NCBI RefSeq assembly: GCF_002090155.1
Contig: NZ_BBRM01000003.1
Coordinates: forward strand, 124,001 to 188,000
Direction: 5' to 3'
Source of the DNA: Demequina sp. NBRC 110056
GTDB lineage: Bacteria > Actinomycetota > Actinomycetes > Actinomycetales > Demequinaceae
DNA length: 64,000 nt
Shown: in pieces, positions 11,086 to 50,389 of the stretch
Position numbering within the stretch: the stretch's first letter is position 1
How the letters are laid out: the number at the start of each line of letters is the position of its first letter
The notes under the pieces: generated by a model
What the model was told of the DNA's origin: nothing
Databases searched by the model: none
The model's input: only the letters and a program-made list of their open reading frames with translations
Translations under genes and position numbers: made by a program

Positions 11086-11101
11086 CACCGCCACTGGATT
11101 C

Positions 11102-11222: not shown

Positions 11223-11228
11223 TGTCGC

Positions 11229-15893: not shown

Positions 15894-15900
15894 GCTGAAC

Positions 15901-15983
15901 ACCATACACGTACTTGACCCATGCGGCTAGGGTCGCTACTGTTCGAGTGTACGGAATCCGGAACGACGTTCAAATAGCCGAAC
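15901..15983 (+). promoter_or_regulatory. Promoter and candidate operator of the kdu operon
   Basis: TTGACC (15914-15919) and TACTGT (15937-15942) are separated by exactly 17 bases, a good sigma-A promoter. Downstream, GTTC and GAAC form dyads: GTTC at 15941 with GAAC at 15961, and GTTC-N8-GAAC at 15968-15983. IclR-type repressors often bind such GTTC/GAAC palindromes overlapping transcription starts. The minus-strand TATGGT (15901-15906) is the likely -10 of the regulator. Confidence 0.6.
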
Positions 15984-15993
15984 AAGAGGATCA

Positions 15994-16815
15994 ATGATGA
16001 TCGAGCTTCGCCACGCGGCAGGACCAGAGTCGATGAGCCGCGCGACCACTCAGGAGCTGCGCGAGCGGTTCCTGGTCGACACCCTGTTCTCCACTGGGGA
16101 GTTCCGCGCAGTCCTTGCCGGTCTTGACCGCATGCTGATCGCGGGCGTCGTGCCCGGCGAGAGCGAGGTGGTGCCGAGCGGGCTCGACCTCATCGGGGCG
16201 GACACGCTGCTCGAGCGCCGCGAGCTTGGCGTCATCAACCTCGGCCAGCCGGGATACGTGCTCGTCGATGGTGAGCGTCACGAGCTCGGCCACCACGACG
16301 GCCTCTACGTCGGGCGTGGACACGATGTCGCCTTCGGTGGAGCCGGCGCGATCTTCTATCTGATCTCCGCGACGGCGCACGCCGACCATCCGACCGCGGT
16401 GATCCCCCACGCCTCCGTCGAGCCCGTGGAGATCGAGGACCCGCGCGGTGCCGGCAGCCGTCGCCTGTACCGCTACGTCTGGGGAGGAGGCCACGCCTCG
16501 TGCCAGCTGCAGTTCGGCATCACGATCCTCGAGCCCCGCGCAGCCTGGAACACCATCCCGCCGCACCTCCACACCCGGCGCACGGAGATCTACCTCTACA
16601 CCGAGCTCGGCGAGGACGACCGCGTGATGCACTTCATGGGCGAGCCGGATCAGACGCGGCACCTCGTGGTCGGCAACCACGAGGCGGTCATCGCACCGCC
16701 GTGGTCGGTTCACTTCGGTGCCGGCTCGACTCCCTACGCGTTCGTCTGGGCCATGGCGGGCGAGAACACGGACTACGGCGACCTCCAGCCGGTGGCCCTG
16801 CGAGACCTCCGGTGA
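15994..16815 (+). CDS. kduI: 5-dehydro-4-deoxy-D-glucuronate isomerase KduI
   Basis: KduI isomerises 5-keto-4-deoxyuronate (from pectin or other unsaturated uronides) to 2,5-diketo-3-deoxygluconate. The 273-residue cupin has the family's zinc-site segment PPHLHTRRTEIYLYTEL and the flanking FGITILEPRAAWNTIPPH and VMHFMGEPDQTRHLVVGNHEAVI segments. AGAGGA precedes two in-frame ATGs (15994, 15997). It is the first gene of a seven-gene operon and overlaps kduD by 4 bases. Divergence from an IclR regulator supports substrate-inducible uronate catabolism. Confidence 0.95.
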   Translation: MMIELRHAAGPESMSRATTQELRERFLVDTLFSTGEFRAVLAGLDRMLIAGVVPGESEVVPSGLDLIGADTLLERRELGVINLGQPGYVLVDGERHELGHHDGLYVGRGHDVAFGGAGAIFYLISATAHADHPTAVIPHASVEPVEIEDPRGAGSRRLYRYVWGGGHASCQLQFGITILEPRAAWNTIPPHLHTRRTEIYLYTELGEDDRVMHFMGEPDQTRHLVVGNHEAVIAPPWSVHFGAGSTPYAFVWAMAGENTDYGDLQPVALRDLR

Positions 16816-17582
16816 TCACGGCGGAGGTGCGTGAGCTCTTCTCGCTCGAGGGGCGCACCGCGCTGATCACCGGCGCCGGTCGCGGCATCGGCAAGGCGAT
16901 CGCCTGCGGCCTCGCAGGCGCTGGAGCAGACGTCGTGCTCGCGGGCCGCAACGGCTCCGTCGAGCGCACCGCCGAGCTGCTGACCGAGCAGGGCTACGCG
17001 GCCTCGACCGTCGCCTGGGACCTCGAGCACACGGACACCCTCCAACAGGAGGCCCGCGAGCTCGCTCAGGAGCGATCGATCGACATCCTCGTCAACAACG
17101 CCGGGATCATCGAACGCACCCCGAGCGTGGAGGTGAGCCAGGCCCAGTGGCGGCGCGTGCTGTCCGTGAATCTCGACGCGGCGTTCGTGCTGAGCCAGGC
17201 GTTCGGCGCGGCGATGATCGAGCGCGGCCACGGCAAGGTCATCAACGTCGCAAGCCTGCTCGCCTTCCAAGGCGGGCTGCGGGTGGCGAGCTATTCCGCG
17301 AGCAAGCACGGGATCATGGCCGTCACCCAGGCGCTGTCGAACGAGTGGGCTCAGCACGGCGTGCAGGTGAACGCGATCGCTCCTGGCTACATCGCGACGG
17401 CGAACACCGAGGAGCTGCGCGAGGACTCCGCGCGCTCCGCCGAGATCCTCGCGCGCATCCCGAGCGCGCGCTGGGGTGAGCCCACGGACATCAGCGGCGC
17501 GGCGGTGTTCCTCGCATCGCGGGCGTCCGACTACGTCACGGGCCACACGTTGGTGGTGGATGGGGGCTGGATGGCGCGATGA
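16812..17582 (+). CDS. kduD: 2-dehydro-3-deoxy-D-gluconate 5-dehydrogenase KduD (SDR)
   Basis: This is a 256-residue classical short-chain dehydrogenase. TGAGRGIGKAI binds NAD(P), NNAG is at about 92, the catalytic Ser lies in NVASLLAF and Tyr/Lys in YSASKHG, and the C-terminus is YVTGHTLVVDGGWMAR. In this position it should reduce 2,5-diketo-3-deoxygluconate to KDG, the step following KduI. The GTG start overlaps the kduI stop (GTGA). KDG kinase and KDPG aldolase, which would finish the pathway, are not in the window. Confidence 0.92.
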   Translation: MITAEVRELFSLEGRTALITGAGRGIGKAIACGLAGAGADVVLAGRNGSVERTAELLTEQGYAASTVAWDLEHTDTLQQEARELAQERSIDILVNNAGIIERTPSVEVSQAQWRRVLSVNLDAAFVLSQAFGAAMIERGHGKVINVASLLAFQGGLRVASYSASKHGIMAVTQALSNEWAQHGVQVNAIAPGYIATANTEELREDSARSAEILARIPSARWGEPTDISGAAVFLASRASDYVTGHTLVVDGGWMAR

Positions 17583-17641
17583 CGGTGCAGATCGAGCAGG
17601 AACCACCACAGACACTCATGTCCATAGAATGGAGAATCACA

Positions 17642-18775
17642 GTGAACTCAATGATGCGTTCGCGCCGAGGGATGGCCTTGGCGACGGCGGCTGGATCGCT
17701 GCTCATCCTGAGCGGTTGCAGCGCCGGCACGGAGGGGACCGAGACCGACGTCACGAGCGACGCCGGCTCGACGGAGACGCCCGACTCGTCCGCAGGCGGC
17801 ACCTGCGCGCCTGAGGAGATCCAGCTCATCGGTCAGGTCCGCAACGAGACCAACCCGTACGAGAAGGCATGGCTCGACGGCGGCGACGCCTTCGCCGAGT
17901 CGGTCGGTCTCACCCAGACCCGCCTCACCTACGACGGCGAGTCCCCCAAGCAGCAGGAGCAGCTGCGTCAGACCCTGAGCACCGGCAACCCGGAGTGCAT
18001 GGTCCTCAACGTGCTGCCGAACGGCGACTCCGACACCGCTCCGATCGTGGCCGAGGTCGACGCCGCCGGCGCCTACCTCGTCACCCACTGGAACAAGCCC
18101 GCTGACCTGAACCCGTGGGACGGGCACGACACCTGGATCTCGCACATCACCTTCGACGGCGTGGACGCCGGCGCTCAGATCGCCGACGCGATCTTCGAGG
18201 AGATGGGCGGCGAGGGCGGCATCATCGCTCTCCAGGGCATCCTCGACACGAGCGCAGCCAAGGACCGCTTCATCGGTCTCGAGAACTCGCTCGAGGCGAA
18301 TCCCGGGATCACGCTGCTGGACCAGCAGGCGGCCGACTTCGACCGCACGTCGGCGTTCAACATCACCAAGACCCTCATCACCAAGCACGGTGACGAGATC
18401 AAGGGCGTGTGGGCGGCGAACGACGACATGGCGCTCGGCGCCCTGCAGGCCCTCGAGGCGGCAGGCATGTCCGACGTGGCCGTGGCCGGCATCGATGCCG
18501 TCCCCGAGGCCGTGCAGGCGGTCGCAGACGGCACCATGACCGCGACCGTGTCGGTCGACGGTCCCTGGCAGGGCGGCATCGGCCTGGCGATGGGCTACTG
18601 CGTGCTGACGGGCGGCCTCGACATGGCGGACGTCACGCAGGAGCAGCGCGCGTTCTTCGCACGCCAGACCTTGATCTCGGCCGAGAACGCCGAGGAGAAC
18701 CTCACCCCGACGGCGAACCTCGCCGACTTCGAGTGTGGCAACCTCTTCGACCGCGTCACCGGACCGGTGAGCTAA
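17642..18775 (+). CDS. Ribose-type (CUT2) ABC transporter substrate-binding lipoprotein
   Basis: This is a periplasmic-binding-protein-like (Peripla_BP_4) lipoprotein. The signal peptide MMRSRRGMALATAAGSLLIL ends in the lipobox LILSGC, followed by an acidic Thr/Ser linker. The body shows the two-lobed pattern with ALQGILDTSAAKDRF, GVWAANDDMALGALQAL and VAGIDAVPEAVQAV, typical of RbsB/XylF-like sugar binders. GTG 17642 is chosen because GGAG lies 7 bases upstream; an ATG at 17579 overlapping the kduD stop is an alternative but would add an unlikely N-terminus. Operon context suggests a uronate or uronate-derived monomer as ligand. Confidence 0.88.
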   Translation: MNSMMRSRRGMALATAAGSLLILSGCSAGTEGTETDVTSDAGSTETPDSSAGGTCAPEEIQLIGQVRNETNPYEKAWLDGGDAFAESVGLTQTRLTYDGESPKQQEQLRQTLSTGNPECMVLNVLPNGDSDTAPIVAEVDAAGAYLVTHWNKPADLNPWDGHDTWISHITFDGVDAGAQIADAIFEEMGGEGGIIALQGILDTSAAKDRFIGLENSLEANPGITLLDQQAADFDRTSAFNITKTLITKHGDEIKGVWAANDDMALGALQALEAAGMSDVAVAGIDAVPEAVQAVADGTMTATVSVDGPWQGGIGLAMGYCVLTGGLDMADVTQEQRAFFARQTLISAENAEENLTPTANLADFECGNLFDRVTGPVS

Positions 18776-18776
18776 G

Positions 18777-19796
18777 GTGGCGCCCGCCCGGCTCGGGCAA
18801 GCCCCGCCCGAGACCGGGCGGGCACCCGCCCGCTCGCGTCGCCGCGCGAGCCTCCTCGCGGACTACGGTCCGCTGGGTGCCCTCGTGCTGCTGTGCCTGA
18901 CGTTCTCGGTGCTGAGCCCGCAGTTCGCGACGTGGGGCAACCTGCGCAACGTCCTGGACTCGGCGGCGGTCCTCGCCGTCATCACCGTCGGACTCACCTT
19001 CGTCCTGATGCTCGGCGCGATCGACCTGTCGATCGAGGGAGTGATGGCGACGGCGGCGTTGAGCGTGGCGCTGCTGATCGCGAACACGCGCAACGACATC
19101 GACCTGGGCTTCCTTGCCATCGTCGCGGCGGTGGCGCTCGGCGCCTGCTTCGGCCTTGCGACGGGGTTGCTGTCGACGGGCCTGAAGATCCCATCGTTCA
19201 TGACGACCCTAGGCATGTCGGCGATCGGCATCGGCATCGCGACCGTGCTCTTCGCCGGCGTGCAGCCCAGCGTCACGTCGCCGGCGATGGGCGAATGGGC
19301 GTCCGGCCAGTGGTTCGGCCTCACCCGCCTGACCTTCGTGGCGATCGGCGTGGTGATCGTGGGCCTGCTGGTCCAGCACTACACGCGACTGGGCCGCTAC
19401 GCCCGCGCGATCGGCGGCGCTGAGGACCTCGCGCTGCTGTCCGGCATCCGCGTGCGCCGCTACAAGACCATCGCCTTCACCTTCGCCGGCGCCGTGTACG
19501 GCCTCGCCGGCGTCATGGTCACGATCCAGCTCGGCTCGGGGATCGTGCAGGCCGGAGTGGGGCAGAACTTCGCAGCGATCACCGCTGCGGTCGTCGGCGG
19601 CACGCTGCTGTCGGGCGGCCGTGGCGGGGTCCTGCACTCGATCGTGGGAGTGCTCATCGTGACCGTGCTCGTCAACGGACTCGTGCTGATCGGCGTCAGT
19701 CCCTACGTCCAGGGTGCCGTGCAGGGCGTGATCGTCGTCGCGGCGGTCGCGATCACCGCGTGGCCCCTGCGCCAGCGTCTGCGAGTCGTCAAGTGA
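18777..19796 (+). CDS. Ribose-type ABC transporter permease (first)
   Basis: This RbsC-family permease has 339 residues and eight to ten hydrophobic segments after a basic N-terminal extension (about 30 residues, Arg/Pro/Ala-rich). Family landmarks are VITVGLTFVLMLGAIDLSIEG, IPSFMTTLGM, GRYARAIGGAEDLALLSGI and AAVVGGTLLSGGRGGV. The GTG start is one base after the binding-protein stop, and the 3' end overlaps the ATPase start. It pairs with the second permease at 21319 to form the channel. Confidence 0.9.
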   Translation: MAPARLGQAPPETGRAPARSRRRASLLADYGPLGALVLLCLTFSVLSPQFATWGNLRNVLDSAAVLAVITVGLTFVLMLGAIDLSIEGVMATAALSVALLIANTRNDIDLGFLAIVAAVALGACFGLATGLLSTGLKIPSFMTTLGMSAIGIGIATVLFAGVQPSVTSPAMGEWASGQWFGLTRLTFVAIGVVIVGLLVQHYTRLGRYARAIGGAEDLALLSGIRVRRYKTIAFTFAGAVYGLAGVMVTIQLGSGIVQAGVGQNFAAITAAVVGGTLLSGGRGGVLHSIVGVLIVTVLVNGLVLIGVSPYVQGAVQGVIVVAAVAITAWPLRQRLRVVK

Positions 19797-21319
19797 GCGC
19801 CCCGGCCGAGGCCCCGGTCCTCGCGGTCCACGACGTCCGCAAGACTTTCGGCGAGACGACTGCGCTCGACGGGCTGTCCTTCGAGGTGCGGCGCCACGAG
19901 GTCGTGGGCCTCATCGGCGAGAACGGCGCCGGCAAGTCGACGCTGCTGAAGATGCTCATCGGACTGGAGCAGCCCGACTCCGGCTCGATCGCACTGCGAG
20001 GCGAGCAGATCAAGATGCGCGGCATCGCGCAGGCCGGTGCCGCGGGCATCGGCATGGTGTTCCAGGAGCAGTCGCTCATCCCCAACCTCACCGTCGCCGA
20101 GAACATCCTGTTCGGCGCGGAAGGAGACGCCATCGTCGGGGGGATGTACCGCTGGAAGACCCTGCGTCAGCGCGCCCAGGCGCAGCTCGACAAGATCGGC
20201 TCGACCATCGACGTCGATGCCATGGCTGAGGACCTCACCTTCGCCGAGCGCCAGCTCGTCGAGATCGCGAAGGTCCTCGCCACCGAAGAGCGGACGAACG
20301 CCGAGCCGGTGGTCCTCCTCGACGAGCCGACCTCTGTGCTGGACCGGGACGAGGCGGAGGTGCTGTTCGCGCAGATCGAGAGGCTGCGCACTCGCGCCTC
20401 GGTCGTGTTCGTCTCTCACAGGCTCGACGAGGTGCTGCAGGTCTCGGACCGCGTCTACGTGCTGCGCAATGGCAGCAGCGTCGCGGAGTGCGTGCCGGGA
20501 GAGGTCGATGAGGCGGAGCTGCGTCGGCTGATGATCGGCCGCGATCTCGAAGGCAGTCACTACAGCGAGGAGCGGCAGCTTCCGGTGCAGGACGAGGTTC
20601 GGCTCCGGGTGCGCGACCTGTCCGTCAAGGGCGTGTGCGAGAGCGTCGACTTCGACCTGCACGTCGGCGAGATCCTCGGGATCGCGGGTGTGCAGGGCTC
20701 CGGCCGCGAGGAGCTGTGCCGGGGAATCTTCGGCGCGTCCGCCACCCGGGGGTCGCTCGAGATGGACGGTCGACCCATCAGGACCTCCTCGCCGCGGTCG
20801 GCGATCTCCTCGGACATCGGCTTCGTCCCTGCCGAGCGCCGCCGCGAAGGCATGGTCGGCACCATGTCCGTGGCGGAGAACATCACGCTTCCGCACATCG
20901 CAGACGTCTGTGCCGGTCCCGTGCTGCAGCGCAGCAAGGAGCGCCGGCTCGCCGACGACTGGATCGAGCGACTGCGCATCCGCACGGCGTCGGCGGCGGC
21001 GCCGCTCGCGTCGCTCTCGGGCGGCAACCAGCAGAAGGCCGTGCTCGCGCGCTGGATGGTGTCGGACTCTCTCAAGCTGCTGATCCTCGACCATCCCACG
21101 CGCGGCCTCGACGTCGGCGCGAAGAGCGAGGTGTACCGGCTCATCCGGGAGCTCACCGCCTCCGGGGTGTCGGTGCTGCTGATGGCGGACAGCCTGGAGG
21201 AGCTGATCGCGATGAGCCATCGCGTCTTGGTGATGAAGGACGGCCGAGTGACCGACGTCGTCGACGCCCCGGTGGGAGCCAAGCCCACCCCGGTCACGGT
21301 TCTGGAGCGGATGATCTGA
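19793..21319 (+). CDS. Ribose-type ABC transporter ATP-binding protein (double ABC domain)
   Basis: This 508-residue RbsA-like ATPase has two fused nucleotide-binding domains. The first has Walker A GENGAGKSTLLK (about 42-53) and Walker B VVLLDEPTSVLD; the signature is degenerate (DLTFAERQLVEIAKVL) as is usual for the family. The second lacks a canonical Walker A (GVQGSGREELCR) but keeps LSGGNQQKAVLARWM and LLILDHPTRGLD, where a His replaces the common Glu, so hydrolysis may be asymmetric. It overlaps both neighbouring permease genes by 4 and 1 bases. Confidence 0.93.
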   Translation: MSAPAEAPVLAVHDVRKTFGETTALDGLSFEVRRHEVVGLIGENGAGKSTLLKMLIGLEQPDSGSIALRGEQIKMRGIAQAGAAGIGMVFQEQSLIPNLTVAENILFGAEGDAIVGGMYRWKTLRQRAQAQLDKIGSTIDVDAMAEDLTFAERQLVEIAKVLATEERTNAEPVVLLDEPTSVLDRDEAEVLFAQIERLRTRASVVFVSHRLDEVLQVSDRVYVLRNGSSVAECVPGEVDEAELRRLMIGRDLEGSHYSEERQLPVQDEVRLRVRDLSVKGVCESVDFDLHVGEILGIAGVQGSGREELCRGIFGASATRGSLEMDGRPIRTSSPRSAISSDIGFVPAERRREGMVGTMSVAENITLPHIADVCAGPVLQRSKERRLADDWIERLRIRTASAAAPLASLSGGNQQKAVLARWMVSDSLKLLILDHPTRGLDVGAKSEVYRLIRELTASGVSVLLMADSLEELIAMSHRVLVMKDGRVTDVVDAPVGAKPTPVTVLERMI

Positions 21320-22320
21320 TGAGCGTCGTGGACAAGGTGGAGACCACCACCGAACAGCGGGAGAAGCTGCGGATGCCGCGGATGTCCCGTCGGCAGCTGC
21401 TGCTGACGATCATGCCGGTCGCCGTCCTCGTGTGCCTGGTGGGCGCGATCTCGATCGCCAACCCGAACTTCCTGCGCCCAGCGAGCATCTGGACGGTCCT
21501 CGACTCCTCGGTGCCGCTGCTGATCCTCGCGCTCGGCGCGATGCTGGTGATCCTGTGCGGCGGCATCGATCTCTCGGTCGCCGCGCTCGCGTCGATGGCG
21601 TCGGTGCTGGTCGCCCTGTGGGTGCCCGCGCTGGAAGGTTGGGCGGTGGTCCTCGTGGTGCTGGTCTGCGCGCTCGCCGGGCTCATCCAGGGGGTGGTCC
21701 ACGTCGTGGCGCAGATCCCGTCCTTCCTCGTGACCCTCGGTGGTCTCGCCGTGTGGTCGGGGATCGCGCTGGTCGTCTCGGGCGCCGCGACCATCGGCGT
21801 CTCGGGCGACACCCTCGCCTGGACCTTCACCCGCCTCACGGGCTGGAACATCCCGAGCGCGGTCCTCATCGGCGCGGCGGTCGTCGCGGTGCTGGGGCTC
21901 GTCATGTTGCTCACTCCGGTGCGCCGCTGGCTCATCGCGATCGGCAGCAACGAGCCGGCGGCCCTGCTTGCAGGCGTGCCCGTCGCGCGCACCAAGATCG
22001 GCGCCTTCATCGTCTCCGGAGCGTGCGCGGGCTTCGCCGGCGTGATGCTCGTCGGTCGGACGTACAGCGGGGCGCCGACCCTCGCCGACTCCCTGCTCCT
22101 GCCCGTCGTCGCCGCGATCGTGGTGGGCGGCACTGCCATCACCGGCGGGTTCGGCGGGGTGGGACGCACCGTCATCGGCGTCCTGATCATCACGGTGCTT
22201 CGCGTCGGACTGTCCGTCGCTGGCGTCGACCCGTCGTACGTGCAGATCTTCTACGGCGCACTCGTGATCGCCGCCGTCGCCCTGACCATCGACCGCTCCA
22301 AGCTCCTGTTCGTCAAGTGA
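21319..22320 (+). CDS. Ribose-type ABC transporter permease (second)
   Basis: This is the second RbsC-family permease (333 residues), with LLILALGAMLVILCGGIDLSV and PSFLVTLGGLAVWSG as family landmarks and RRWLIAIGSNEPAALLAGVPV before the final helices. Together with the first permease it makes a heterodimeric channel, so the operon encodes a complete importer, unlike aglEFG. The ATG shares a base with the ATPase stop. A 23-bp gap with AAAGGA separates it from the aldehyde dehydrogenase. Confidence 0.9.
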   Translation: MSVVDKVETTTEQREKLRMPRMSRRQLLLTIMPVAVLVCLVGAISIANPNFLRPASIWTVLDSSVPLLILALGAMLVILCGGIDLSVAALASMASVLVALWVPALEGWAVVLVVLVCALAGLIQGVVHVVAQIPSFLVTLGGLAVWSGIALVVSGAATIGVSGDTLAWTFTRLTGWNIPSAVLIGAAVVAVLGLVMLLTPVRRWLIAIGSNEPAALLAGVPVARTKIGAFIVSGACAGFAGVMLVGRTYSGAPTLADSLLLPVVAAIVVGGTAITGGFGGVGRTVIGVLIITVLRVGLSVAGVDPSYVQIFYGALVIAAVALTIDRSKLLFVK

Positions 22321-22343
22321 CGTTCCCCAAGAAAGGACACCTC

Positions 22344-23828
22344 ATGACCACCGACGCCCTTCTCCCCAGCGTCGCCTCGTTCGTCAGCGCACCCAAGCAG
22401 CTGCTGATCGACGGCGAGCTTCGCGACGCCGCTGACGGTCGCACCTTCGCGACGGTCGACCCGGCCACCGAGAACGAGATCACCCAGGTCGCGCAGGCCG
22501 GCGCCGAGGACGTCAACCGGGCCGTCGCATCGGCTCGTCGCGCCTTCGAGCACGGCTCGGACTGGAACCGCTTCACGCCGCGCCAGCGCGGCCGGCTGAT
22601 GTGGAGGATCGCGGACCTCCTCGAGGAGCACGCGGACGAGTTCGCTCAGCTCGAGGCGCTCGACGGAGGCAAGCCTTTCGTCGGCGCGCGCGACGGAGAC
22701 GTGGCGACGGCTGCGGAGCTGTTCCGATACTTCGCCGGGTGGGCGAACAAGATCGAAGGGACCACGATCCCGCTGTCGAGCGAGACGGCGGACTTCCTCG
22801 CGTACACGGTGCGCGAGCCGATCGGCGTCGTCGCCGGGATCGTCCCGTGGAACTTCCCGCTCACGATGGCGGCGTTCAAGATCGTGCCCGCCATCACGGT
22901 GGGCAACACGGTGATCCTCAAGCCGGCGGAGCAGACTCCGCTCAGCGCGCTGCGCCTGGGCGAGCTCATGCTCGAGGCCGGCCTACCCGCCGGCGTCGTC
23001 AACGTCCTTCCCGGCTTCGGCGACACCGGTGCCGCGCTCGTCGATCACATCGACGTCGATAAGGTCGCCTTCACCGGCTCCACCGCGGTCGGCAAGGTCA
23101 TCGCGGCGGCTGCCAGCCGCAACCTCAAGAAGGTCTCGCTCGAGCTCGGCGGCAAGGCCCCGAACATCGTGTTCGACGACGCGGATCTGTCCAAGGCGAT
23201 CCCGGGCTCGGCGCACGCCGCGTTCTTCAACCAGGGCCAATGCTGCGTCAACGGCTCGCGCCTGTACGTGCAGCGCGGGGTGTACGACGAGGTCGTCGCC
23301 GGCATCTCCGAGATCGCGAAGGGCATCACCGTCGGCAGCGCGTTCGACGAGCGCACCGACATGGGCCCGCTCATCTCGGACGAGCAGTTTTCGAAGGTCA
23401 CGGGCTACCTCGAAGCGGGCGTCGCGGCGGGCGCCACCGTGGCCGAGGGTGGCGTGCGAGTGGGCGACCGGGGCTACTTCGTGCGCCCCACGGTGTTCAC
23501 CGATGTGAGCGAGCAGATGTCGATCCAGACCGACGAGATCTTCGGTCCCGTCGTCACCGCGGTGCCCTTCGACACCGAGGAGCAGGCCATCGCCGCCGCG
23601 AACAACACGCGCTACGGGCTGGCGGCCGGGGTCTGGTCGCGGGACATCGGCACGGCGCACCGTGTCGGCGGTCGCCTGCGCGCCGGCACCGTCTGGCTCA
23701 ACTCGTGGCACGCGGACGACGTCACGCTGCCGCGCGGCGGCTACAAGGAGTCCGGCTGGGGCCGCGAGCTCGGTTCGTTCGGCGTCGAGGACTACACCGA
23801 GCTGAAGACCATCATCGCTGAGCTGTAG
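22344..23828 (+). CDS. NAD(P)-dependent aldehyde dehydrogenase, last gene of the kdu operon
   Basis: This 494-residue ALDH has PWNFPLTMAAFKIVPAI, the cofactor FTGSTAVGK, the general base Glu 267 in LELGGKAPN, the catalytic Cys 301 in GQCCVNGS and EIFGPVV. It resembles betaine-aldehyde/phenylacetaldehyde/gamma-glutamyl-type ALDHs, so the substrate cannot be named. In a uronate operon it might oxidise a lactaldehyde- or semialdehyde-type product. AAAGGA precedes the ATG with good spacing. It is convergent with galE, with only 6 bases between the stops and no terminator visible. Confidence 0.9.
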   Translation: MTTDALLPSVASFVSAPKQLLIDGELRDAADGRTFATVDPATENEITQVAQAGAEDVNRAVASARRAFEHGSDWNRFTPRQRGRLMWRIADLLEEHADEFAQLEALDGGKPFVGARDGDVATAAELFRYFAGWANKIEGTTIPLSSETADFLAYTVREPIGVVAGIVPWNFPLTMAAFKIVPAITVGNTVILKPAEQTPLSALRLGELMLEAGLPAGVVNVLPGFGDTGAALVDHIDVDKVAFTGSTAVGKVIAAAASRNLKKVSLELGGKAPNIVFDDADLSKAIPGSAHAAFFNQGQCCVNGSRLYVQRGVYDEVVAGISEIAKGITVGSAFDERTDMGPLISDEQFSKVTGYLEAGVAAGATVAEGGVRVGDRGYFVRPTVFTDVSEQMSIQTDEIFGPVVTAVPFDTEEQAIAAANNTRYGLAAGVWSRDIGTAHRVGGRLRAGTVWLNSWHADDVTLPRGGYKESGWGRELGSFGVEDYTELKTIIAEL

Positions 23829-40939: not shown

Positions 40940-41002
40940 CGAAAGTGGGCCCACCTTCCTCGCCGCGCGCCTGTTGAGGATGAAAGTGGGCCCACTTTCG
41001 TC
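40940..41002. repeat. Inverted repeat with two copies of the AAAGTGGGCCCACTTT palindrome
   Basis: CGAAAGTGGGCCCAC (40940-40954) and the longer palindromic GATGAAAGTGGGCCCACTTTC (40979-40999, one further base pair out) face each other across a 24-base spacer. The same palindrome recurs at 45740. It lies in the 195-bp gap between ltrA and the BCCT gene. Confidence 0.8.
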
Positions 41003-42590: not shown

Positions 42591-42596
42591 AGGCTA
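42591..42596 (-). promoter_or_regulatory. Leaderless -10 box TAGCCT formed by the GH3 stop codon
   Basis: It lies on the minus strand 6 bases before the start at 42584; the TAG at 42594-42596 terminates the upstream GH3 gene. Confidence 0.65.
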
Positions 42597-45035
42597 GGTC
42601 AGCCCTGCCTCACCCCGCGCGGCCCGCTTGGCCTTCAGCCCCGTGGCGTTGAGGACCGTGAGCAGCGTGTCGAGCTGCGCGAACGACACCTTGCCCTCGG
42701 AGGCCATGGCGATCGCACGCAGCGGCATGTTGGTGATGAACGCCTCCATGGTGGTGCGCACCTCGTCCGGGGTGTCGTCGCCCACGGGCAGCATCTTGCC
42801 GATCTGCGCGGTGAGCACGGCCTTCACGCGACCGCCGAGCCAGGTCTGGTCGAGGTCGCCGATGACCGAGTCGTAGTGCAGCGGGAACGCCGGGCGCGAG
42901 GCGGGGATCGGCCGCCCGATCAGCCGCGCGAACTCGCTCGCGGTGGCGATGGCCGAGGCGGGCCGGGCGGCCTCGGTGACGACGTCGTCGGACGTGAGGC
43001 GAATGGACTTGGTGGCGACGATCTCGGTCGACGACAGGCCCACGCGGAGCTCGTAGTCGCCCGCCTCGACCTTCCAGGCGCCGTCGGCCGCGTCGTAGAC
43101 GGCGAACGAGCGCTCGTCGAGCTGCACCACCGCATCGGCGCTCTGACCGGGCTCGAGGGTGACCTTCGCGAAGCCCTTGAGCTCCTGCACCGGGCGGTGC
43201 AGGGTCGACACCGGGTCGTGCACGTAGACCTGCACGACGGTCGACCCGGCGCGGTCGCCGGTGTTGGTGACGGGCACCGTCACCTTGCGGGCAGCGCCGC
43301 GCCCGGTCACCTTCGGGGCGCCGAGCTCGAAGGTCGTGTACGACAGGCCGTGGCCGAACGCGAAGCGCGCGGGCACGCCGAACGTGTCGTGGAAGCGGTA
43401 GCCGACGTAGGGGCCCTCGCGGTACTGGACGAGGCGCGGGTCGTTCGCGAAGTCGTGGTTCGAGGGCAGGTCGGTCACCGCGACGGGGAAGGACTCCGCG
43501 AGGCGGCCGCCGGGCTCGGCGTCGCCGAACAGCACGTCCACGACGGCGCTGCCGGAGGCCTGGCCGCCCAGGTACGACTCGAGGATCGCGTTCGGGGCGT
43601 CCGCCCACGGCATGTCGACGGGCGCGCCGTTGGACAGCGTCACCACCACGCGGTCGTGTCGGGCGGTGATCGCCTGGATGAGGCGCACGTGCGAGGCGGG
43701 GACGTCGAGGTGGTCGCGGTCGTAGCCCTCGGACTCGAACGAGGTGGGCAGGCCGACCATGAGCACCACGGTGTCCGCGCCGTCGGCGGCGGCGAGGGCC
43801 TCCTGCAGCTGCGCGTCCGTCGCCTCGCCGGTCCCGGCGTCGTAGCCCGGCGCGTAGGTGAGCGTCGCGCCGTCGCCCAGGCGGGCGCGCATGGCCTCGA
43901 GCGCGGTGTCGAGCCGGGTGGTCTGGACGAGCGAGCTGCCGCCGCCCTGGTGACGCGGAGCCTCCGCGAAGGCGCCGATGAGGGCGATGCTGCCCTGGGG
44001 CGCGAGAGGCAGGATGCCGTCGTTGGTCAGCAGCACCGATCCCGCGGCGGCCGCGCGGCGGGCGAGCGCGTGGTGGTCGGCGTGCATCGCGTCGACGTGG
44101 GCGGCCGGGTGGCGGCTCGCCCGCTCCGCGGCGACGCGCAGCGCGAGCGCGATGACGCGCGCGGCGGCGGTGTCGAGGTCGCTCTCGCTCAGCTCGCCGG
44201 CGTCGATGGCCGCGCTCACGCGGGCGTCGAAGGCTCCCGTGCTCGACGGCATCTCGAGGTCGAGCCCGGCGTGCACCCCCACGGCGCGGTCGAAGGTCGC
44301 GATCCAGTCGGTCATCACCAGGCCGTCGAAGCCCCAGTCGTCGCGCAGGATCTCGGTGAGCAGCTTCCGGGACTCGCCCGCGTGCTCGCCGTTGACGAGG
44401 TTGTAGGCGCTCATGACGGTCCACGGCTGAGCCTCACGCACCGCGATCTCGAAGCCGGTGAGGTAGATCTCGCGCAGGGTGCGCTCGTCGACGATGGTGT
44501 CGAGCCCCATGCGGTTGGTCTCCTGGTTGTTGACCGCGTAGTGCTTGAGGCACGCGCCCACGCCCTCGGCCTGGATGCCGCGCACGAGCGCCGCGGCGGC
44601 GCGGCCGGCCAGCAGCGGGTCCTCGGACATGTACTCGAAGTTCCGGCCGCCGGCAGGGTGGCGCTTGATGTTGAGGCCGGGGCCCAGCAGCACGCCGATC
44701 TCCTCGGTGCGGGCCTCGAGCCCCAGGGCGTGCCCGACCTGCTCGAGGAGGTCGAGGTCCCACGTCGCGGCGAGCGCGCTGGCGGTGGGGAAGCAGGTGG
44801 CGGGCACGGACTCGTGCAGGCCGCCGTGGTCGCCGTCCCCGTTCTGCTTGCGCAGCCCGTGCGGGCCGTCGGTCATCATGAACGACGCCACGCCCTCGGA
44901 GTCGAGCGCCTCGGAGTACCACATGCTGGCTCCGGAGATGAGGCGGATGCGCTCCTCGCGGGGCAGGCGCGAGACGATCTCGAGGGCCTGCTCGGTGACC
45001 CCGTGGGGCAGGACGGGGGCGTCGGTGACGGTCAT
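42594..45035 (-). CDS. Glycoside hydrolase family 3 beta-glucosidase
   Basis: This 813-residue GH3 enzyme probably cleaves terminal beta-linked glucose or xylose. It has an N-terminal TIM barrel (GPGLNIKRHPAGGRNFEYMS; ACLKHYAVNNQETNRM), the nucleophile Asp in GFDGLVMTDWIA (about residue 230), a C-terminal sandwich with the PPRHQGGGSSLV-like loop (APRHQGGGSSLV), and a fibronectin-III-like domain (about residues 560-670). An extra 110-residue C-terminal segment follows. There is no signal peptide, so it acts in the cytoplasm on imported oligosaccharides. A TetR regulator is divergent with a palindromic operator between them. Confidence 0.93.
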   Translation of the reverse strand: MTVTDAPVLPHGVTEQALEIVSRLPREERIRLISGASMWYSEALDSEGVASFMMTDGPHGLRKQNGDGDHGGLHESVPATCFPTASALAATWDLDLLEQVGHALGLEARTEEIGVLLGPGLNIKRHPAGGRNFEYMSEDPLLAGRAAAALVRGIQAEGVGACLKHYAVNNQETNRMGLDTIVDERTLREIYLTGFEIAVREAQPWTVMSAYNLVNGEHAGESRKLLTEILRDDWGFDGLVMTDWIATFDRAVGVHAGLDLEMPSSTGAFDARVSAAIDAGELSESDLDTAAARVIALALRVAAERASRHPAAHVDAMHADHHALARRAAAAGSVLLTNDGILPLAPQGSIALIGAFAEAPRHQGGGSSLVQTTRLDTALEAMRARLGDGATLTYAPGYDAGTGEATDAQLQEALAAADGADTVVLMVGLPTSFESEGYDRDHLDVPASHVRLIQAITARHDRVVVTLSNGAPVDMPWADAPNAILESYLGGQASGSAVVDVLFGDAEPGGRLAESFPVAVTDLPSNHDFANDPRLVQYREGPYVGYRFHDTFGVPARFAFGHGLSYTTFELGAPKVTGRGAARKVTVPVTNTGDRAGSTVVQVYVHDPVSTLHRPVQELKGFAKVTLEPGQSADAVVQLDERSFAVYDAADGAWKVEAGDYELRVGLSSTEIVATKSIRLTSDDVVTEAARPASAIATASEFARLIGRPIPASRPAFPLHYDSVIGDLDQTWLGGRVKAVLTAQIGKMLPVGDDTPDEVRTTMEAFITNMPLRAIAMASEGKVSFAQLDTLLTVLNATGLKAKRAARGEAGLT

Positions 45036-45067
45036 GATGCTCCTTGTGGCGGCGGCGATGCCTTGCC

Positions 45068-45086
45068 TATCTAAGACAGTTAGATA
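45068..45086. promoter_or_regulatory. Palindromic operator between the GH3 and tetR-family genes
   Basis: TATCTAA-GACAG-TTAGATA is a perfect 7-bp inverted repeat with a 5-base centre in an AT-rich patch. TetR-family dimers bind such sites, so the divergent regulator probably represses both genes here. Confidence 0.75.
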
Positions 45087-45103
45087 AGGTGGAGTCTAGG
45101 CGG

Positions 45104-45113
45104 GCCGATGCGC
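45104..45113 (+). repeat. Dispersed GCCGATGCGC motif, intergenic copy upstream of the tetR-family gene
   Basis: Exact core followed by GCGCCGC, 17 bases downstream of the palindromic operator in the GH3/TetR gap. Confidence 0.8.
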
Positions 45114-45153
45114 GCGCCGCAAGTCTCGACCGGCACGTGGGGAGGTGGCTGGG

Positions 45154-45699
45154 GTGGCAGGACGCATGACGCCAGAGGCGCGTCGCGAGTGGATCCTCGA
45201 CGTGGCGCTCGCGGTCATCGACGCCGAGGGGCACCGCGGTCTCACGATGGCCGAGCTCGCCCGCCGGTGCGAGATGTCCACCCCGGGCCTCATGCACTAC
45301 TTCCCCGACCTCGACACGCTGCTGGTGGCGCTCGTGCGCCGCCGCGACGAGCGCGACGACGCGGCGATCGACTGGGAGCGCGCAGTCGCCGAAGGTCCGC
45401 GCGCGCTGCTCGACAGGACCGTGGAGAACATCGTCGCGCTGCCGCACGCGGCGCGGCTGTTCGCGATGGTCGAGGCGGACGCGCTCGACCCGTCGCACCC
45501 CGGCCACGCCTACTTCCGGGAGCGCGCGGCGATGCTCGAGGTCGGGCTCGCGGCCCTGCTCGACGGGCCCGATCCGCGCCGGCGTGCGCGGCGGATCTTC
45601 GCGGCCATGGACGGGCTCCAGCTGCACTACCTGCGCGATCCCGAGGGCTTCGACATGCGCGCCGAGTGGGCGGCGACGGCGGACGCCCTGCTCGCGTAG
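45154..45699 (+). CDS. TetR/AcrR-family transcriptional regulator of the GH3 gene
   Basis: This 181-residue regulator has the TetR N-terminal domain: RREWILDVALAVIDAEGHRG, TMAELARRCEMSTPGLMHYF, DLDTLLVALVRRRDERD. The ligand domain is divergent, as usual. It lies divergent from the GH3 glucosidase with a perfect palindrome in the gap, so it most likely senses a sugar or glycoside and represses that gene. GTG 45154 is chosen from GGAGG 8 bases upstream; ATG 45166 and GTG 45145 are alternatives. The 3' end faces the ROK regulator. Confidence 0.88.
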   Translation: MAGRMTPEARREWILDVALAVIDAEGHRGLTMAELARRCEMSTPGLMHYFPDLDTLLVALVRRRDERDDAAIDWERAVAEGPRALLDRTVENIVALPHAARLFAMVEADALDPSHPGHAYFRERAAMLEVGLAALLDGPDPRRRARRIFAAMDGLQLHYLRDPEGFDMRAEWAATADALLA

Positions 45700-45739: not shown

Positions 45740-45765
45740 CGATGAAAGTGGGCCCACTTTCATCG
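45740..45765. repeat. Perfect 26-bp palindrome (third AAAGTGGGCCCACTTT copy)
   Basis: The palindrome is centred on GGGCCC and is nearly the same sequence as at 40979-41002. It lies between the convergent tetR and ROK-regulator genes and could act as a bidirectional terminator or protein-binding site. Confidence 0.8.
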
Positions 45766-45840: not shown

Positions 45841-47061
45841 TCACAGCGCGTCGAGCGCCTCCCGCGTCAGGGTCCCCGGCGCTGGCGCGCCGGCGAGGGC
45901 GGACGGGTCCGCGCCCCAGCCCGCATAGAGGCCGTGCAGCGCGGTGACGGCGGCGCCCGCGGCGCCCGCGAGGTCGCCCAGCTCCGTGGCCACCACGCGT
46001 GGTGCGACGGTGAGCGTCGCCGCGAGCGCCTCCTCGTAGCGAGCGAGGTCGCCCGTGAGGGACTTCGCGATGCCCCCGCCGAGCACGATGACGTCGGGGT
46101 CGCTCGCCACCGCGACGGCGGCGAGCACGGTGGTGAGCGCCCGGTCGAAGTCGGCGCGCAGCGCGGCCGCCGGGCCGGGGCGGAACACCGCGGCCGGATC
46201 GTCGAGCGCGATGCCCGCGGCGACGGCGCGGGCCAGCAGGCCGGGTCCGGTGACGAGCGCCTCGAGCGTCAGCCCCTCGGGGCCCGCGGGGATCTGGCCG
46301 AACTCTCCGACGAGCCCGCGCCGACCGCGCACGATGGCCCCGTCGACCGCGAGCCCCACGCCGAGGCCCGCGCCGAGCGTGACCATCGCCGCGGACGTCG
46401 CATCGGCCGCCGCGCCCGCGTGCTGCTCGCCGACGAGGGCGAGGTTCGCATCGTTGTCCACCGCGACGAGCGCGCCCCCGGAGCCGGCCTCGAGCGCCTC
46501 GAGGAAGGCGGGGTCCTCGACCTGGCGGAGGTTGGCGGCATTCGAGATGCGGCGCACCGCGCCGGTCGCGGGGTCGGACGCTGCGGCGGCTACAGCGCCG
46601 GGCAGTCCCACGGCGAGGGCGAGGCCCCGCGGGGCAGGGGAGGGCCGCGCGCCGCCCGGGACCGCACCGGCGTCGCGTGCGCGGTCCCCGACCTCCTCTG
46701 CGATGTCCTGCAGCCACCGGGCTAGCTCCGCCGGACCGAGCGTGGCGGGCGTCGGCACGTCCGCGGTCGCGCGCGCCGTGCCCGTCGCGTCCACCGCGAC
46801 GGCCCGCGTGCGCGACGCGCCCAGGTCGATCCCGACGGCGAGCCCCGCGCCAGGAGCCACGTCGAGCAGCACCTCGCGGCGTCCGCGACGGTCGGCGGCG
46901 ACCTCCGCCACCTCGACCACGAGGCCCTCGGTCATCAGCGCGTCGACGGCGCGCGTCACTGTCGCGGGGGAGGCCCCGGTCGCGAGCGCGAGGCGCTTGC
47001 GGCTCGCAGGCCGCAGGCGCAGCAGCGCCGCGAAGATCCTGCCGCGGGTGCGGTCCACCAT
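45841..47061 (-). CDS. ROK-family transcriptional regulator (NagC/XylR-like)
   Basis: This 406-residue regulator has an N-terminal winged helix-turn-helix (RLRPASRKRLALATGASPATVTRAVDALMTEGLV) and a C-terminal ROK sugar-binding domain (GIDLGASRTRAVAVD; VTLGAGLGVGLAVDG; VIVLGGGIAKSL). Oddly, the ROK zinc motif GHxxxxxxxxxCxCGxxGCxE is missing: the position reads GEFGQIPAGPEGLTLEALVT with no Cys. Start 47061 has AGGAGG 8 bases upstream, whereas the ATG at 47109 has none. It is divergent from php with an AT-rich dyad in the gap and probably regulates php-ROK kinase-yhfX. Confidence 0.87.
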   Translation of the reverse strand: MVDRTRGRIFAALLRLRPASRKRLALATGASPATVTRAVDALMTEGLVVEVAEVAADRRGRREVLLDVAPGAGLAVGIDLGASRTRAVAVDATGTARATADVPTPATLGPAELARWLQDIAEEVGDRARDAGAVPGGARPSPAPRGLALAVGLPGAVAAAASDPATGAVRRISNAANLRQVEDPAFLEALEAGSGGALVAVDNDANLALVGEQHAGAAADATSAAMVTLGAGLGVGLAVDGAIVRGRRGLVGEFGQIPAGPEGLTLEALVTGPGLLARAVAAGIALDDPAAVFRPGPAAALRADFDRALTTVLAAVAVASDPDVIVLGGGIAKSLTGDLARYEEALAATLTVAPRVVATELGDLAGAAGAAVTALHGLYAGWGADPSALAGAPAPGTLTREALDAL

Positions 47062-47111
47062 GCGTTCGGCCTCCTCCGCGAGCCGACGTCGGCGGCCCGC
47101 TTGACGCATTT

Positions 47112-47128
47112 GTTTTCACCGCGCAAAC
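47112..47128. promoter_or_regulatory. Candidate ROK operator between the regulator and php
   Basis: GTTT-N9-AAAC is an inverted repeat in an AT-rich island of the 131-bp divergent gap. The minus-strand GATAGT (47127-47132) is a possible -10 for the regulator, overlapping the dyad and consistent with autoregulation. Confidence 0.45.
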
Positions 47129-47192
47129 TATCACGCACCCGCCGCCGCGACCCGCTGGGGCGAGCCGTCGAACGACCGCGAGAGGAGCCGTC

Positions 47193-48272
47193 GTGACCAC
47201 CGCACTGCCCGCCTCGTCCCCCAGCCCGGCCGGCGCATCGGCGCTGCCCACGGCAACGGTGCAGACCGTCCTCGGGCCGGTCGACCCGGCGACGCTGGGC
47301 CGCGTGATGGTCCATGAGCACCCGCTGTCGCTGGCGCCGGGCCCATGGACCACGGGCGGCGGCGACGTCGACGAGCACGCCATCGCGCTCGCGGCCTCTG
47401 CGCTCGCGCCGCTGCTGGATCACGGCATCGACGTCGTGGTCGACCTCAGTCCGTACGGCGTCGTCGGGAGAGCCGACCACGGCGAGAACATCGAGCTGCT
47501 GGCCGAGGTGTCGCGGCGCTCGGGGGTGCACATCGTCGCCGGCACGTCCGTCTACCTCGAGGCCTTCAGCCCCGCGTGGACCGTGGACGCCGGGCTCGAC
47601 GCGATGGCCGAACGGATGTCCGCCGACCTCACGCGCGGCATCGCGGGCACCGCCGTCCGGGCGGGCGTGCTCGGCGAGCAGGCGACCGGGCTCGGCGCGA
47701 TCACGCCCCACGAGGACAAGTGCCTGCGCGCGGCGGCCCGTGCCCACCTGCGCACCGGCGCCGCGATCATGACGCACACGACGCACGGCACCATGGCGCT
47801 CGAGCAGGTCGCGATCCTCCGGGACGAGGGCGCCGACCTGTCGCGCGTCGTCATCGGCCACATGGACATCCAGCCCGACATCGACGTCCTCGCCGCCGTC
47901 CTCGAGATGGGCGCGTGCCTCGCCCTCGACACCATCGGCAAGCAGCACTGGGACTTCTTCCTCGCCCCACAGCCCACCCCCGAGACGGACGGCGAGTACG
48001 GCAAGCGCGGCTACTTCCGCTCCGACCTGTCGCGAGCCCGCATCCTCGCCGAGCTGTGGCGACGCGGCTATGGCGACCAGATCCTCCTGGCCCAGGACCT
48101 CACCGGCGCCGAGGTGTCGCTCAACCCGACCACGCACGGCCAGTGGGGGTACGCCTACCTGCCCGCGGTCTTCCTGCCACTCGCCATGGAGCACGGGCTG
48201 CCGCCGGAGGCCGCCGACACGCTCCTGCGATCGACGCCGCTGCGCCTGCTCACGCTCGGAGGTGGCTCATGA
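47193..48272 (+). CDS. Phosphotriesterase-family hydrolase (Php-like)
   Basis: This 359-residue amidohydrolase-fold protein belongs to the phosphotriesterase homology group. The HxH metal motif is MVHEHPLSLAPG, the bridging-residue position lies in VLGEQATG (Glu, as in E. coli Php, rather than carboxylated Lys), followed by IMTHTTHGT, IGHMDIQPDID and the metal-binding Asp in LLAQDLTGAE. The natural substrates are probably lactones or esters; a phosphotriester is unlikely. GAGAGG precedes the GTG start. It overlaps the ROK kinase by 4 bases. The N-terminus includes a dispersed-motif copy (47233). Confidence 0.85.
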   Translation: MTTALPASSPSPAGASALPTATVQTVLGPVDPATLGRVMVHEHPLSLAPGPWTTGGGDVDEHAIALAASALAPLLDHGIDVVVDLSPYGVVGRADHGENIELLAEVSRRSGVHIVAGTSVYLEAFSPAWTVDAGLDAMAERMSADLTRGIAGTAVRAGVLGEQATGLGAITPHEDKCLRAAARAHLRTGAAIMTHTTHGTMALEQVAILRDEGADLSRVVIGHMDIQPDIDVLAAVLEMGACLALDTIGKQHWDFFLAPQPTPETDGEYGKRGYFRSDLSRARILAELWRRGYGDQILLAQDLTGAEVSLNPTTHGQWGYAYLPAVFLPLAMEHGLPPEAADTLLRSTPLRLLTLGGGS

Positions 48273-49183
48273 CGCTCGTCGTCGGGGTGGACCTCGGCGG
48301 CACCAAGGTGCGTGCCGCGATCGCCGACGCCCGCGGCGAGATCCTCGCCGTCGACGAGGTGCGCACGGCCGATGCGGGCGCCGGGCTCGCGGCGGCCGTC
48401 GCCGCCCTCGAGGGCCGGCTCGTCGCCCAGGTCGGGGCAGCGGCAGCCGACGTCGCCGTCACCGCCGTCGGCGGCGCGGGAGTGGTGACCGGGGACGGGT
48501 TCACGGACGCCCCGCACCTCGACGCGACCGCCGCGGCCACGCTCGGCGGCGACCTCGCTGTGCTCGTGGGCCACCCGGTGGCGCTCGAGAACGACGTCAA
48601 CGTCGCCGCGCTCGGGGCTCTGCACGCGCGCGAGGCCGGCGAGTCGTTCGCCTTCGTGTCGCTCGGCACCGGCATCGGCATGGGCCTCGTGATCGACGGT
48701 CGGATCGTGCGCGGCGCGCGCGGCGCCGCGGGCGAGATCGGCTACCTGCCCATGGGCGCCGATCCGACGGATCCCGACAACCACCGCCGCGGCGCCCTCG
48801 AGGAGGTCGCCGCTGGCGAGACCGTCGCTCAGCGCTACGCGGACCTCGCCGGCGTCGAGCTCGACACCGCGGAGGTGTTCGCGGCTGCCGCGCGCGGCGA
48901 CGCGGGCGCCGAGGCGGCCGTCGACGCCTACGCCCGCTGGGTCGCCCACGCGGTCGGCGCCGTCATCGCCGTCGTCGACCCCGCGCTCATCCTGCTCGGC
49001 GGCGGCATCGGCTCGCGGGAGGACCTCGCTCCGCGGGTGCGCGACTGGCTCGCCGCGCTGGGGTTCGTCGACACCGAGGTGCGCGCCAGCGCCCTCGGCG
49101 GCCGCGGGCCCCTCCTCGGCGCGGTGCGCCTCGCCCTGTCCACGTCCTCGCCCGAGCCAGCACGCGCATCGGCCCTCACCTAG
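48269..49183 (+). CDS. ROK-family sugar kinase (glucokinase-like)
   Basis: This 304-residue kinase has DLGGTKVRAAIAD for ATP phosphate binding, VALENDVNVAALGAL, SLGTGIGMGLVIDGRIVRGARG and LLGGGIGS. It probably phosphorylates a hexose or N-acyl sugar. Like the divergent regulator, it lacks the Cys-rich zinc motif: the position after GEIGYLPMG contains no Cys. It lies between php and yhfX with overlapping or near-overlapping ends, so the three are one operon. A dispersed-motif copy (49164-49173) encodes the last residues. Confidence 0.87.
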   Translation: MTLVVGVDLGGTKVRAAIADARGEILAVDEVRTADAGAGLAAAVAALEGRLVAQVGAAAADVAVTAVGGAGVVTGDGFTDAPHLDATAAATLGGDLAVLVGHPVALENDVNVAALGALHAREAGESFAFVSLGTGIGMGLVIDGRIVRGARGAAGEIGYLPMGADPTDPDNHRRGALEEVAAGETVAQRYADLAGVELDTAEVFAAAARGDAGAEAAVDAYARWVAHAVGAVIAVVDPALILLGGGIGSREDLAPRVRDWLAALGFVDTEVRASALGGRGPLLGAVRLALSTSSPEPARASALT

Positions 49184-49192
49184 GAGACACCC

Positions 49193-50389
49193 GTGTTCCT
49201 CGACGTCCTGCGACGCCGCAACCCCGCCCTCGTGCGCGACGCCGTCGCGCTGCACCAGGCCGGCGCGATCCCCGCCAACTGCACGGTGCTCGACCTCGAC
49301 ACGATCGGGCGCAACGCGGACGCGTTCGTGGCCGAGGCGAGCCGGCTGGGCCTCACGCCGTTCGCGATGACCAAGCAGATCGGCCGCAACCCGGACGTGT
49401 CGCGCGCGCTCGTCGCCCGCGGCATCACCCACGCCGTCGGCGTCGACCTCGAGTGCGCGATCGCCGCGGCGCACGGCGGGCTGTCCGTCGGGCACGTGGG
49501 GCACCTCGTGCAGGTCCCACGCCACCGGGCCGCGGACGCCGCCGCGCTGCGCCCGGCGTACTGGACCGTCTTCTCCTTCGACAAGGCACGGGAGGCGGGA
49601 GCCGCCGCGACGGCGCTCGGGCGGGAGCAGGCGGTCCTCGCGCGCATCACCGCCCCCGGCGACCGGTTCTATCGCGGCCACGAGGGCGGCTTCGACGCCG
49701 CCGACGTCGTGGCCGTGGCCGACGCGCTCGACGCGATCCCCGGCGTCCGCTTCGCGGGCGTGACGAGCTTCCCGGCGACGTTGTTCGACGCGGCGACGGG
49801 GCGCGCGGCCTCGACCCCCAACCTCGCGACCCTGACGCGCGCCAAGGAGGCGCTGCTCGCGGCCGGACGCGAGCACGTCGAGCTCAACGCGCCCGGCACG
49901 ACCTCGACGTCGATCCTCGAGACGCTCGCGGCGGCGGGCGCGACCCAGGTCGAGCCCGGACACGGGCTCACCGGCACCACTCCGCTGCACGCCGTCGAGG
50001 ACCTGGTCGAGGAGCCCGCGATCGCGTACATCAGCGAGGTCTCGCACCTGCACAGGGACGAGGCGTTCGTGTTCGGCGGCGGACTGTATGTCGACCCGGT
50101 GCTGGGCGACGCGTCGACGCGCGCGCTCGTGGTGGGCGCGGGCCAGGACCCCGCCGCCGTCGAGCCGCGGCCCGTCGACATGCCCGCGGCGAACGCCATC
50201 GACTACTACGCGACGGTGTCCGCCGCCGAGGTGAGCACCGGCGACACGGTCGTCATGGGCTTCCGCCCGCAGGTGTTCGTGTCGCGCTCGCTCACGGCCG
50301 CGATCAGCGGCGTCGGGACGGGCGCGCCCCGGGTCGAGGGCGTGTGGTCGGCGGACGGCTCGGCACCCCTGGCGGTGCCGTCGCGCTGA
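49193..50389 (+). CDS. YhfX-like PLP-dependent (alanine racemase-fold) protein
   Basis: This 398-residue fold-type III PLP protein resembles E. coli YhfX. The PLP lysine is in FAMTKQIGRNPDV (about residue 61), followed by WTVFSFDKAREAG, GVTSFPATLFDA and a C-terminal domain with AAISGVGTG. Its activity is unknown; family members are related to amino-acid racemases. AGGAGA precedes the GTG start, 9 bp after the kinase. It sits in a php/ROK/yhfX arrangement reminiscent of the E. coli yhf locus, which also contains php (yhfV) and yhfX. Confidence 0.83.
   Translation: MFLDVLRRRNPALVRDAVALHQAGAIPANCTVLDLDTIGRNADAFVAEASRLGLTPFAMTKQIGRNPDVSRALVARGITHAVGVDLECAIAAAHGGLSVGHVGHLVQVPRHRAADAAALRPAYWTVFSFDKAREAGAAATALGREQAVLARITAPGDRFYRGHEGGFDAADVVAVADALDAIPGVRFAGVTSFPATLFDAATGRAASTPNLATLTRAKEALLAAGREHVELNAPGTTSTSILETLAAAGATQVEPGHGLTGTTPLHAVEDLVEEPAIAYISEVSHLHRDEAFVFGGGLYVDPVLGDASTRALVVGAGQDPAAVEPRPVDMPAANAIDYYATVSAAEVSTGDTVVMGFRPQVFVSRSLTAAISGVGTGAPRVEGVWSADGSAPLAVPSR

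Follow-up and report, generated by a model that had tools for sequence, protein, structure and literature searches.

In the genome of the actinobacterium Demequina sp. NBRC 110056 (2.94 Mb, 99.98% complete), a stretch of 64,000 nucleotides, here called the window, carries a small operon composed of php, a ROK kinase gene, and yhfX, with a ROK regulator gene transcribed divergently from it. The organization, distribution, and possible metabolic role of this operon are the subject of the present analysis. The regulator (45841–47109, minus strand) is a ROK-family transcriptional regulator of 422 amino acids with a winged-helix N terminus and a ROK domain (Pfam ROK, 91 bits), and its helix-turn-helix matches in Pfam are weak. 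Across an intergenic region of 83 bases, the operon begins on the plus strand with PHP (47193–48272), a metal hydrolase of the PTE family with a GTG start and 359 amino acids (Pfam PTE, PF02126, 184 bits). It is followed by a ROK sugar kinase (48269–49183, plus strand; Pfam ROK, 147 bits), whose ATG overlaps the PHP stop codon, and, 9 bases after the kinase stop, by YhfX (49193–50389, plus strand), a pyridoxal 5′-phosphate- (PLP-) dependent enzyme with a GTG start, an AGGAG-type ribosome site, and matches to YhfX-like_C (80 bits) and Ala_racemase_N (51 bits). All these Pfam scores exceed the family cut-offs, and the packed operon with a divergent ROK regulator described in an earlier sequence-only reading is confirmed in all four genes.

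A scan of 84,980 species genomes returned at least 584 YhfX loci, and the best 80 were kept with their flanks (single loci are designated below by L numbers). Gene contexts were recomputed by tblastn; plain calling of open reading frames gave spurious antisense frames in high-GC loci. YhfX is uncommon near the window organism: 7 of 149 relatives have it, as do 5 of 396 actinobacteria (own genome counted). The neighbourhoods of the best 80 loci are strikingly uniform. YhfX sits in two main cassette types, which have in common only the hydrolase and YhfX itself. Type A is the Escherichia coli cassette of yhfS, yhfT, yhfU, php, yhfW, yhfX, and yhfZ. Type B consists of a ROK regulator, one or more CUT2 binding proteins, PHP or an M20 protein, a ROK kinase (mainly in actinobacteria), an RbsC-type permease, YhfX, a single-domain ABC ATPase, and a SIS protein or NagB. 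In 73 of 81 loci the CUT2 set of binding protein, permease, and ATPase is complete, and an orthologue of the window regulator occupies the equivalent position in full type B loci.

In less biased samples of new loci, type A accounts for 6 of 10 in Pseudomonadota, 10 of 10 in Spirochaetota, and 7 of 13 in Chloroflexota, and some of the sampled type A loci are without single genes such as yhfW or php. Six Chloroflexota loci belong to neither type; M20 adjoins yhfX in two of them and an amino-acid permease in two. Complete E. coli-type cassettes (yhfW, yhfX, yhfS, php, yhfT, yhfU, and yhfZ) are also found in two actinobacteria (L112 and L113). The recurrence of php with yhfX in distant phyla, which had been presumed from E. 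coli and the window, is borne out by this neighbourhood survey, as the two genes occur together in Actinomycetota, Pseudomonadota, Spirochaetota, and Chloroflexota and are not confined to two lineages.

The window operon had been likened to the orphan yhf locus of E. coli. Indeed, the closest solved structures for window YhfX and PHP are those of E. coli YhfX (4kbx, E 2e-74) and E. coli PHP (1bf6/4lef), with identities of 38% and 33%, respectively, and in E. coli php and yhfX belong to one operon. The resemblance holds to this extent, but the two E. coli genes are not strictly neighbours, being separated by yhfW, and the nearest relatives of the window operon are found in the other, CUT2-based cassette. 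In 17 kb around the window operon, tblastn detected none of E. coli YhfS, YhfT, YhfU, YhfW, and YhfZ, whereas the same queries do match in true type A loci. The structures of E. coli YhfX and PHP have been solved (4kbx and 1bf6), and we know of no function for either protein; no relevant open literature was found on yhfX, yhfV, or the yhf operon.

In the YhfX tree, the window protein clusters with type B proteins of Demequina and Microbacteriaceae (support 99), and the window also has the divergent ROK regulator with an operator, the PHP hydrolase, and the ROK kinase of type B. No CUT2 binding protein, permease, or ATPase was found in the window operon by tblastn; unlike the window, other Demequina loci carry the transporter genes. 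A glucosamine-6-phosphate (GlcN-6-P) deaminase of the NagB-II or NagB-I kind was not found in the window operon either, and it is missing also from some other Demequina loci. With a YhfX of the B branch and no transporter or deaminase genes, and likewise without yhfS, yhfT, yhfU, yhfW, and yhfZ, the window operon is, judged by its gene content, a reduced type B operon and neither a full member nor an E. coli-type locus.

The predicted ROK operator ATAGTTTGCGCGGTGAAAACAAA (47109–47131, minus strand; consensus TTTGATTGC-N4-TGAAATCAAA) has a score of 20.8 in a matrix built from 18 distinct sites of other loci, with the window excluded. Read on the opposite strand, this position reaches 6.2, and the best score anywhere else in the 64 kb is 2.5. 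The outer dyad TTTGA-N13-TCAAA is exact in 10 of 35 regulator/operon intergenic regions, as compared to 2 at most in shuffles, and most Micrococcales-type loci match the dyad at 15 or more of 19 positions; 14 was reached once in 700 shuffled regions. Since it matches a window-free matrix, this operator links the window operon, as a predicted member, with the regulon of the full cassettes. Five genome stretches, comprising the best CUT2 permease matches outside the window and the nagB region, were searched for a lost transporter that this operator might control, and no strong operator match was found there (best score 8.1).

The sugar side of the cassette involves the CUT2 sugar transporter, present in most loci, the kinase, and the deaminase. 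The window ROK kinase is without the Zn-binding CxCGxxGCxE motif and has ExGY for ExGH (GEIGYLP...RGALEE, with no cysteines). The SIS protein is present in 37 loci and NagB-I in 5, never both, and in the YhfX tree the loci with NagB-I fall on two distinct branches. Among characterised enzymes, the SIS protein is closest to NagB-II structures. The sugar-phosphate residues of GlmS are retained in 36 of 36 SIS proteins (K603 in 35, with one gap), bar small changes at T352 and S401. Conversely, S303, S349, K485, and K603 are absent from FrlB, the fructoselysine-6-phosphate deglycase. One NagB-I passes the TIGR00502 cut-off, and the NagB-I copies keep D72, H143, E148, and K208. Because the SIS protein is closest to NagB-II and retains GlmS residues which are lost in FrlB, the deamination of GlcN-6-P is the best call for its predicted activity.

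The same enzymes could be placed, with a rather low probability, in a pathway for glycated amino acids (Amadori or Heyns compounds), where the kinase would phosphorylate an N-glycated amino acid, the SIS protein or NagB would serve as a deglycase that frees the amino acid, YhfX would racemise it, and the hydrolase would trim a peptide or lactone. Such pathways are built around a kinase and SIS deglycases (FrlB, FraB), the yhf locus of E. coli adjoins frl, and a Heyns product is an N-substituted glucosamine on which a NagB-like enzyme could act. However, the SIS protein is NagB-II-like and has the four residues missing from FrlB, ordinary NagB-I replaces it in two lineages, and a pathway of this kind needs no amide hydrolase.

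YhfX consists of a fold type III barrel and a YhfX-like C-terminal domain (PF21279, 79.9 bits against a cut-off of 27), with an AlphaFold pLDDT of 91, and K61, in the region of the PLP lysine, is invariant in 25 YhfX sequences. The fold search gave Z scores of 52 for 4kbx, 28 for D-threonine aldolase, 25–27 for D-hydroxyaspartate aldolase/dehydratase, and about 25 for alanine racemase, and the gap between D-threonine aldolase and alanine racemase is too small to fix the chemistry of YhfX. The sequence profile of YhfX reaches D-threonine aldolase at 5e-6 and does not reach alanine racemase, in a match that comprises the barrel only (residues 28–240) and ends before the metal-binding part. An APC amino-acid permease is encoded in or beside the operon in L038, L053, L070, and L089, and L038 has this permease and no ABC set; in Chloroflexota L191 and L192, an amino-acid permease gene lies directly upstream of yhfX (L089 and L191 were judged by visual reading of the translation). 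The substrate of YhfX is probably an amino acid, perhaps of the D form, and its modelled fold would suit racemisation, elimination, or aldol cleavage. It is unlikely that YhfX acts instead on the amino sugar, by epimerisation or elimination, or as a D-hydroxyamino-acid aldolase or dehydratase, and not as a racemase of a released amino acid. The aldolase and dehydratase folds being slightly above alanine racemase, in a near tie, and the profile match to D-threonine aldolase speak for such an activity; on the other hand, this match is limited to the barrel, and the neighbouring amino-acid permeases suit an amino acid substrate under either chemistry.

Two loci, L033 (8001–10416) and L036 (8001–11221), contain two close yhfX paralogues. 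The second copies form a deep branch of their own, which suggests two YhfX specificities in one pathway. In L031, the 5-oxoprolinase genes PxpA and PxpBC (10046–12512) lie directly downstream of a type B operon; this arrangement might point to glutamate or pyroglutamate, but as a single case it was left out of the evidence.

The hydrolase of the window retains the PHP metal ligands H41, H43, E162, H195, H223, and D302, and E162 is the Glu which replaces the carboxylated Lys, as in E. coli PHP. The six metal ligands, with a bridging Glu, are conserved in type A and type B PHPs alike. In both, T247 and K250 are invariant, whereas these residues occur in 3–7% of the other PTEs sampled, 22 of 29 of which have a bridging Lys. 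A common origin of type A and type B PHPs, taken as the null hypothesis, was not rejected (p 0.62). In the YhfX loci tested, PHP is present in 36 (including three type A loci) and M20 in 42, never both. Well-supported branches of the YhfX tree require at least three changes between PHP and M20, and both hydrolases are found among actinobacteria. The M20 proteins retain the metal/catalytic residues H83, D85, D121, E155, E156, D184, and H386 and match deacylase models of the ArgE/DapE type. In L046, a PfkB kinase and a weakly CE4-like (polysaccharide-deacetylase) protein of 496 amino acids replace the ROK kinase and PHP between the ABC ATPase gene and yhfX (5572–7958), and this protein may represent a third hydrolase type of the cassette.

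It has been reported that mammalian PTER, a member of the PTE family whose metal residues include Glu169, hydrolyses the amide N-acetyltaurine (PMC11374699). PTER and window PHP have in common the family, the Glu metal ligand, and, as proposed here for PHP, amide hydrolysis, whereas their substrates differ; the likeness is drawn from the published description of PTER. PHP is predicted, short of proof, to be an amide hydrolase because of its exchange with M20, the residues shared among PHPs, and the amidase activity of PTER. That a lactonase-like PHP serves to degrade a sugar lactone, as first offered from the sequence, is now disfavoured and has little probability: some members of the PTE family are lactonases and the NCBIfam phospho-furanose lactonase model gives a weak match, but M20 deacylases substitute for PHP in otherwise equal operons where the partner is a GlcN-6-P deaminase, PHP has Glu where most sampled PTEs have Lys, and neither a lactone-forming enzyme nor a sugar-acid enzyme was recognised among the genes of the examined cassettes.

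Elsewhere in the window genome there are general CUT2 permeases only (best 35% identical), a weak SIS match (29%), and a NagB-I gene at C2:525263. Selection on the window genes was estimated by crude pairwise ratios of nonsynonymous to synonymous differences (pN/pS), with L108 excluded because it aligned only in part. The values of the window against L110 and L107 are 0.44–0.49 for PHP, 0.29–0.32 for YhfX, and 0.60–0.67 for the kinase; those of L110 against L107 are 0.42, 0.26, and 0.58, respectively. The window genes are under purifying selection about as between full-cassette relatives, with no sign of decay. The operon is hardly a decaying remnant that lost its transporter and has no present function: the missing binding protein, permease, ATPase, and deaminase, for which the genome offers only these distant matches, would fit such a state, but the three genes have intact reading frames and are tightly packed, the operator is retained, and pN/pS is about equal to that of full-cassette relatives.

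Gene content, gene replacements, the operator, and the catalytic residues can be read in the predicted genes of these loci; from them we infer the amide bond, the amino-sugar nature of the substrate, and the order of the steps. With a probability of about 0.45, the cassette catabolises a conjugate in which an amide bond joins an amino sugar to an amino acid, and the window holds a reduced version of this cassette. In the full cassette, the CUT2 ABC transporter would import a small amino sugar-amino acid conjugate, whose amide would be split by PHP or, in other lineages, by the M20 deacylase. The ROK kinase would phosphorylate the amino sugar at O6, and the GlcN-6-P deaminase (NagB-II or NagB-I) would yield fructose-6-phosphate and ammonia. 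YhfX, with its D-threonine-aldolase/alanine-racemase fold, would convert the released amino acid, probably a D- or unusual one, to a usable form; its chemistry and the exact substrate are guesses. The ROK regulator would sense the sugar and bind the operator at 47109–47131. The window strain would have to rely on the NagB-I encoded elsewhere in its genome and on one of its several general sugar transporters. Of what the sequence-only reading had proposed, a catabolic operon is upheld, and of its two substrates the amino-acid-sugar conjugate fits best and the lactone is less likely.

Several points weigh against this amide-linked conjugate pathway. M20 enzymes also cleave peptides and other amides, and the NagB-I copies vary at the position of E. 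coli D141. Many alphaproteobacterial loci are without a kinase or deaminase within reach. The type A YhfX cassettes are without them as well, and the core PHP and YhfX chemistry need not involve an amino sugar. In the window, the pathway is incomplete unless genes elsewhere serve, the transporter and the deaminase being missing.

The exchanges of hydrolase and deaminase (REPLACEMENTS) turn an orphan association into a specific, testable pathway. It predicts that PHP is equivalent to the M20 deacylase, that the sugar side ends at GlcN-6-P, and that YhfX acts on the amino acid side. As types A and B have nothing in common beyond the hydrolase and YhfX, full type B operons that include a binding protein are a better starting point for substrate screening than E. 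coli. A more far-reaching and doubtful proposal is that amino sugars amide-linked to D- or unusual amino acids are an undescribed class of nutrients, degraded through a conserved cassette in which the unrelated amide hydrolases PHP, M20, and possibly the CE4-like enzyme would be interchangeable, and that this would explain the core of the E. coli yhf operon too.

The window has further features besides the operon. A GH3 glycosidase gene and a TetR regulator gene (42594–45699) adjoin the operon, and the best NCBIfam model for the glycosidase is exo-alpha-(1->6)-L-arabinopyranosidase (745 bits, below the cut-off). The perfect palindrome GAAAGTGGGCCCACTTTC occurs twice, together with one copy with one mismatch, at 40941–40999 and 45744–45761, with none expected by chance. 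At 45744, the copy is flanked by the ends of the TetR gene and of the ROK regulator gene, and the palindrome is like an interspersed bidirectional terminator or a REP-like element. An apparent uronate cluster, recognised by eye from the translations, extends from 15093 to 23828 and includes an IclR-type regulator, KduI-like and KduD-like genes, a sugar binding protein, two RbsC-type permeases, an RbsA-type ATPase, and an aldehyde dehydrogenase.

Among known systems, the E. coli yhfSTU-php-yhfWXYZ operon likewise brings YhfX and PHP homologues together, and its PHP shares with that of the window the Glu metal ligand and an invariant DTxGK stretch, whereas the window has a ROK regulator and a ROK kinase and is without YhfS, YhfT, YhfU, YhfW, and YhfZ. 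The frl and fra operons resemble type B in having a sugar kinase, a SIS enzyme, and a transporter for a sugar-amino acid conjugate; in type B, however, the SIS protein is NagB-II-like and not FrlB-like, and a hydrolase and YhfX are added. Catabolism of the nag type (NagK, NagA, and NagB) follows the same logic of kinase, deacylase, and GlcN-6-P deaminase as full type B, in which the deacylase is PHP or M20 and not NagA, YhfX is added, and transport is of the CUT2 kind, whereas the window operon differs from it also in having no deaminase.

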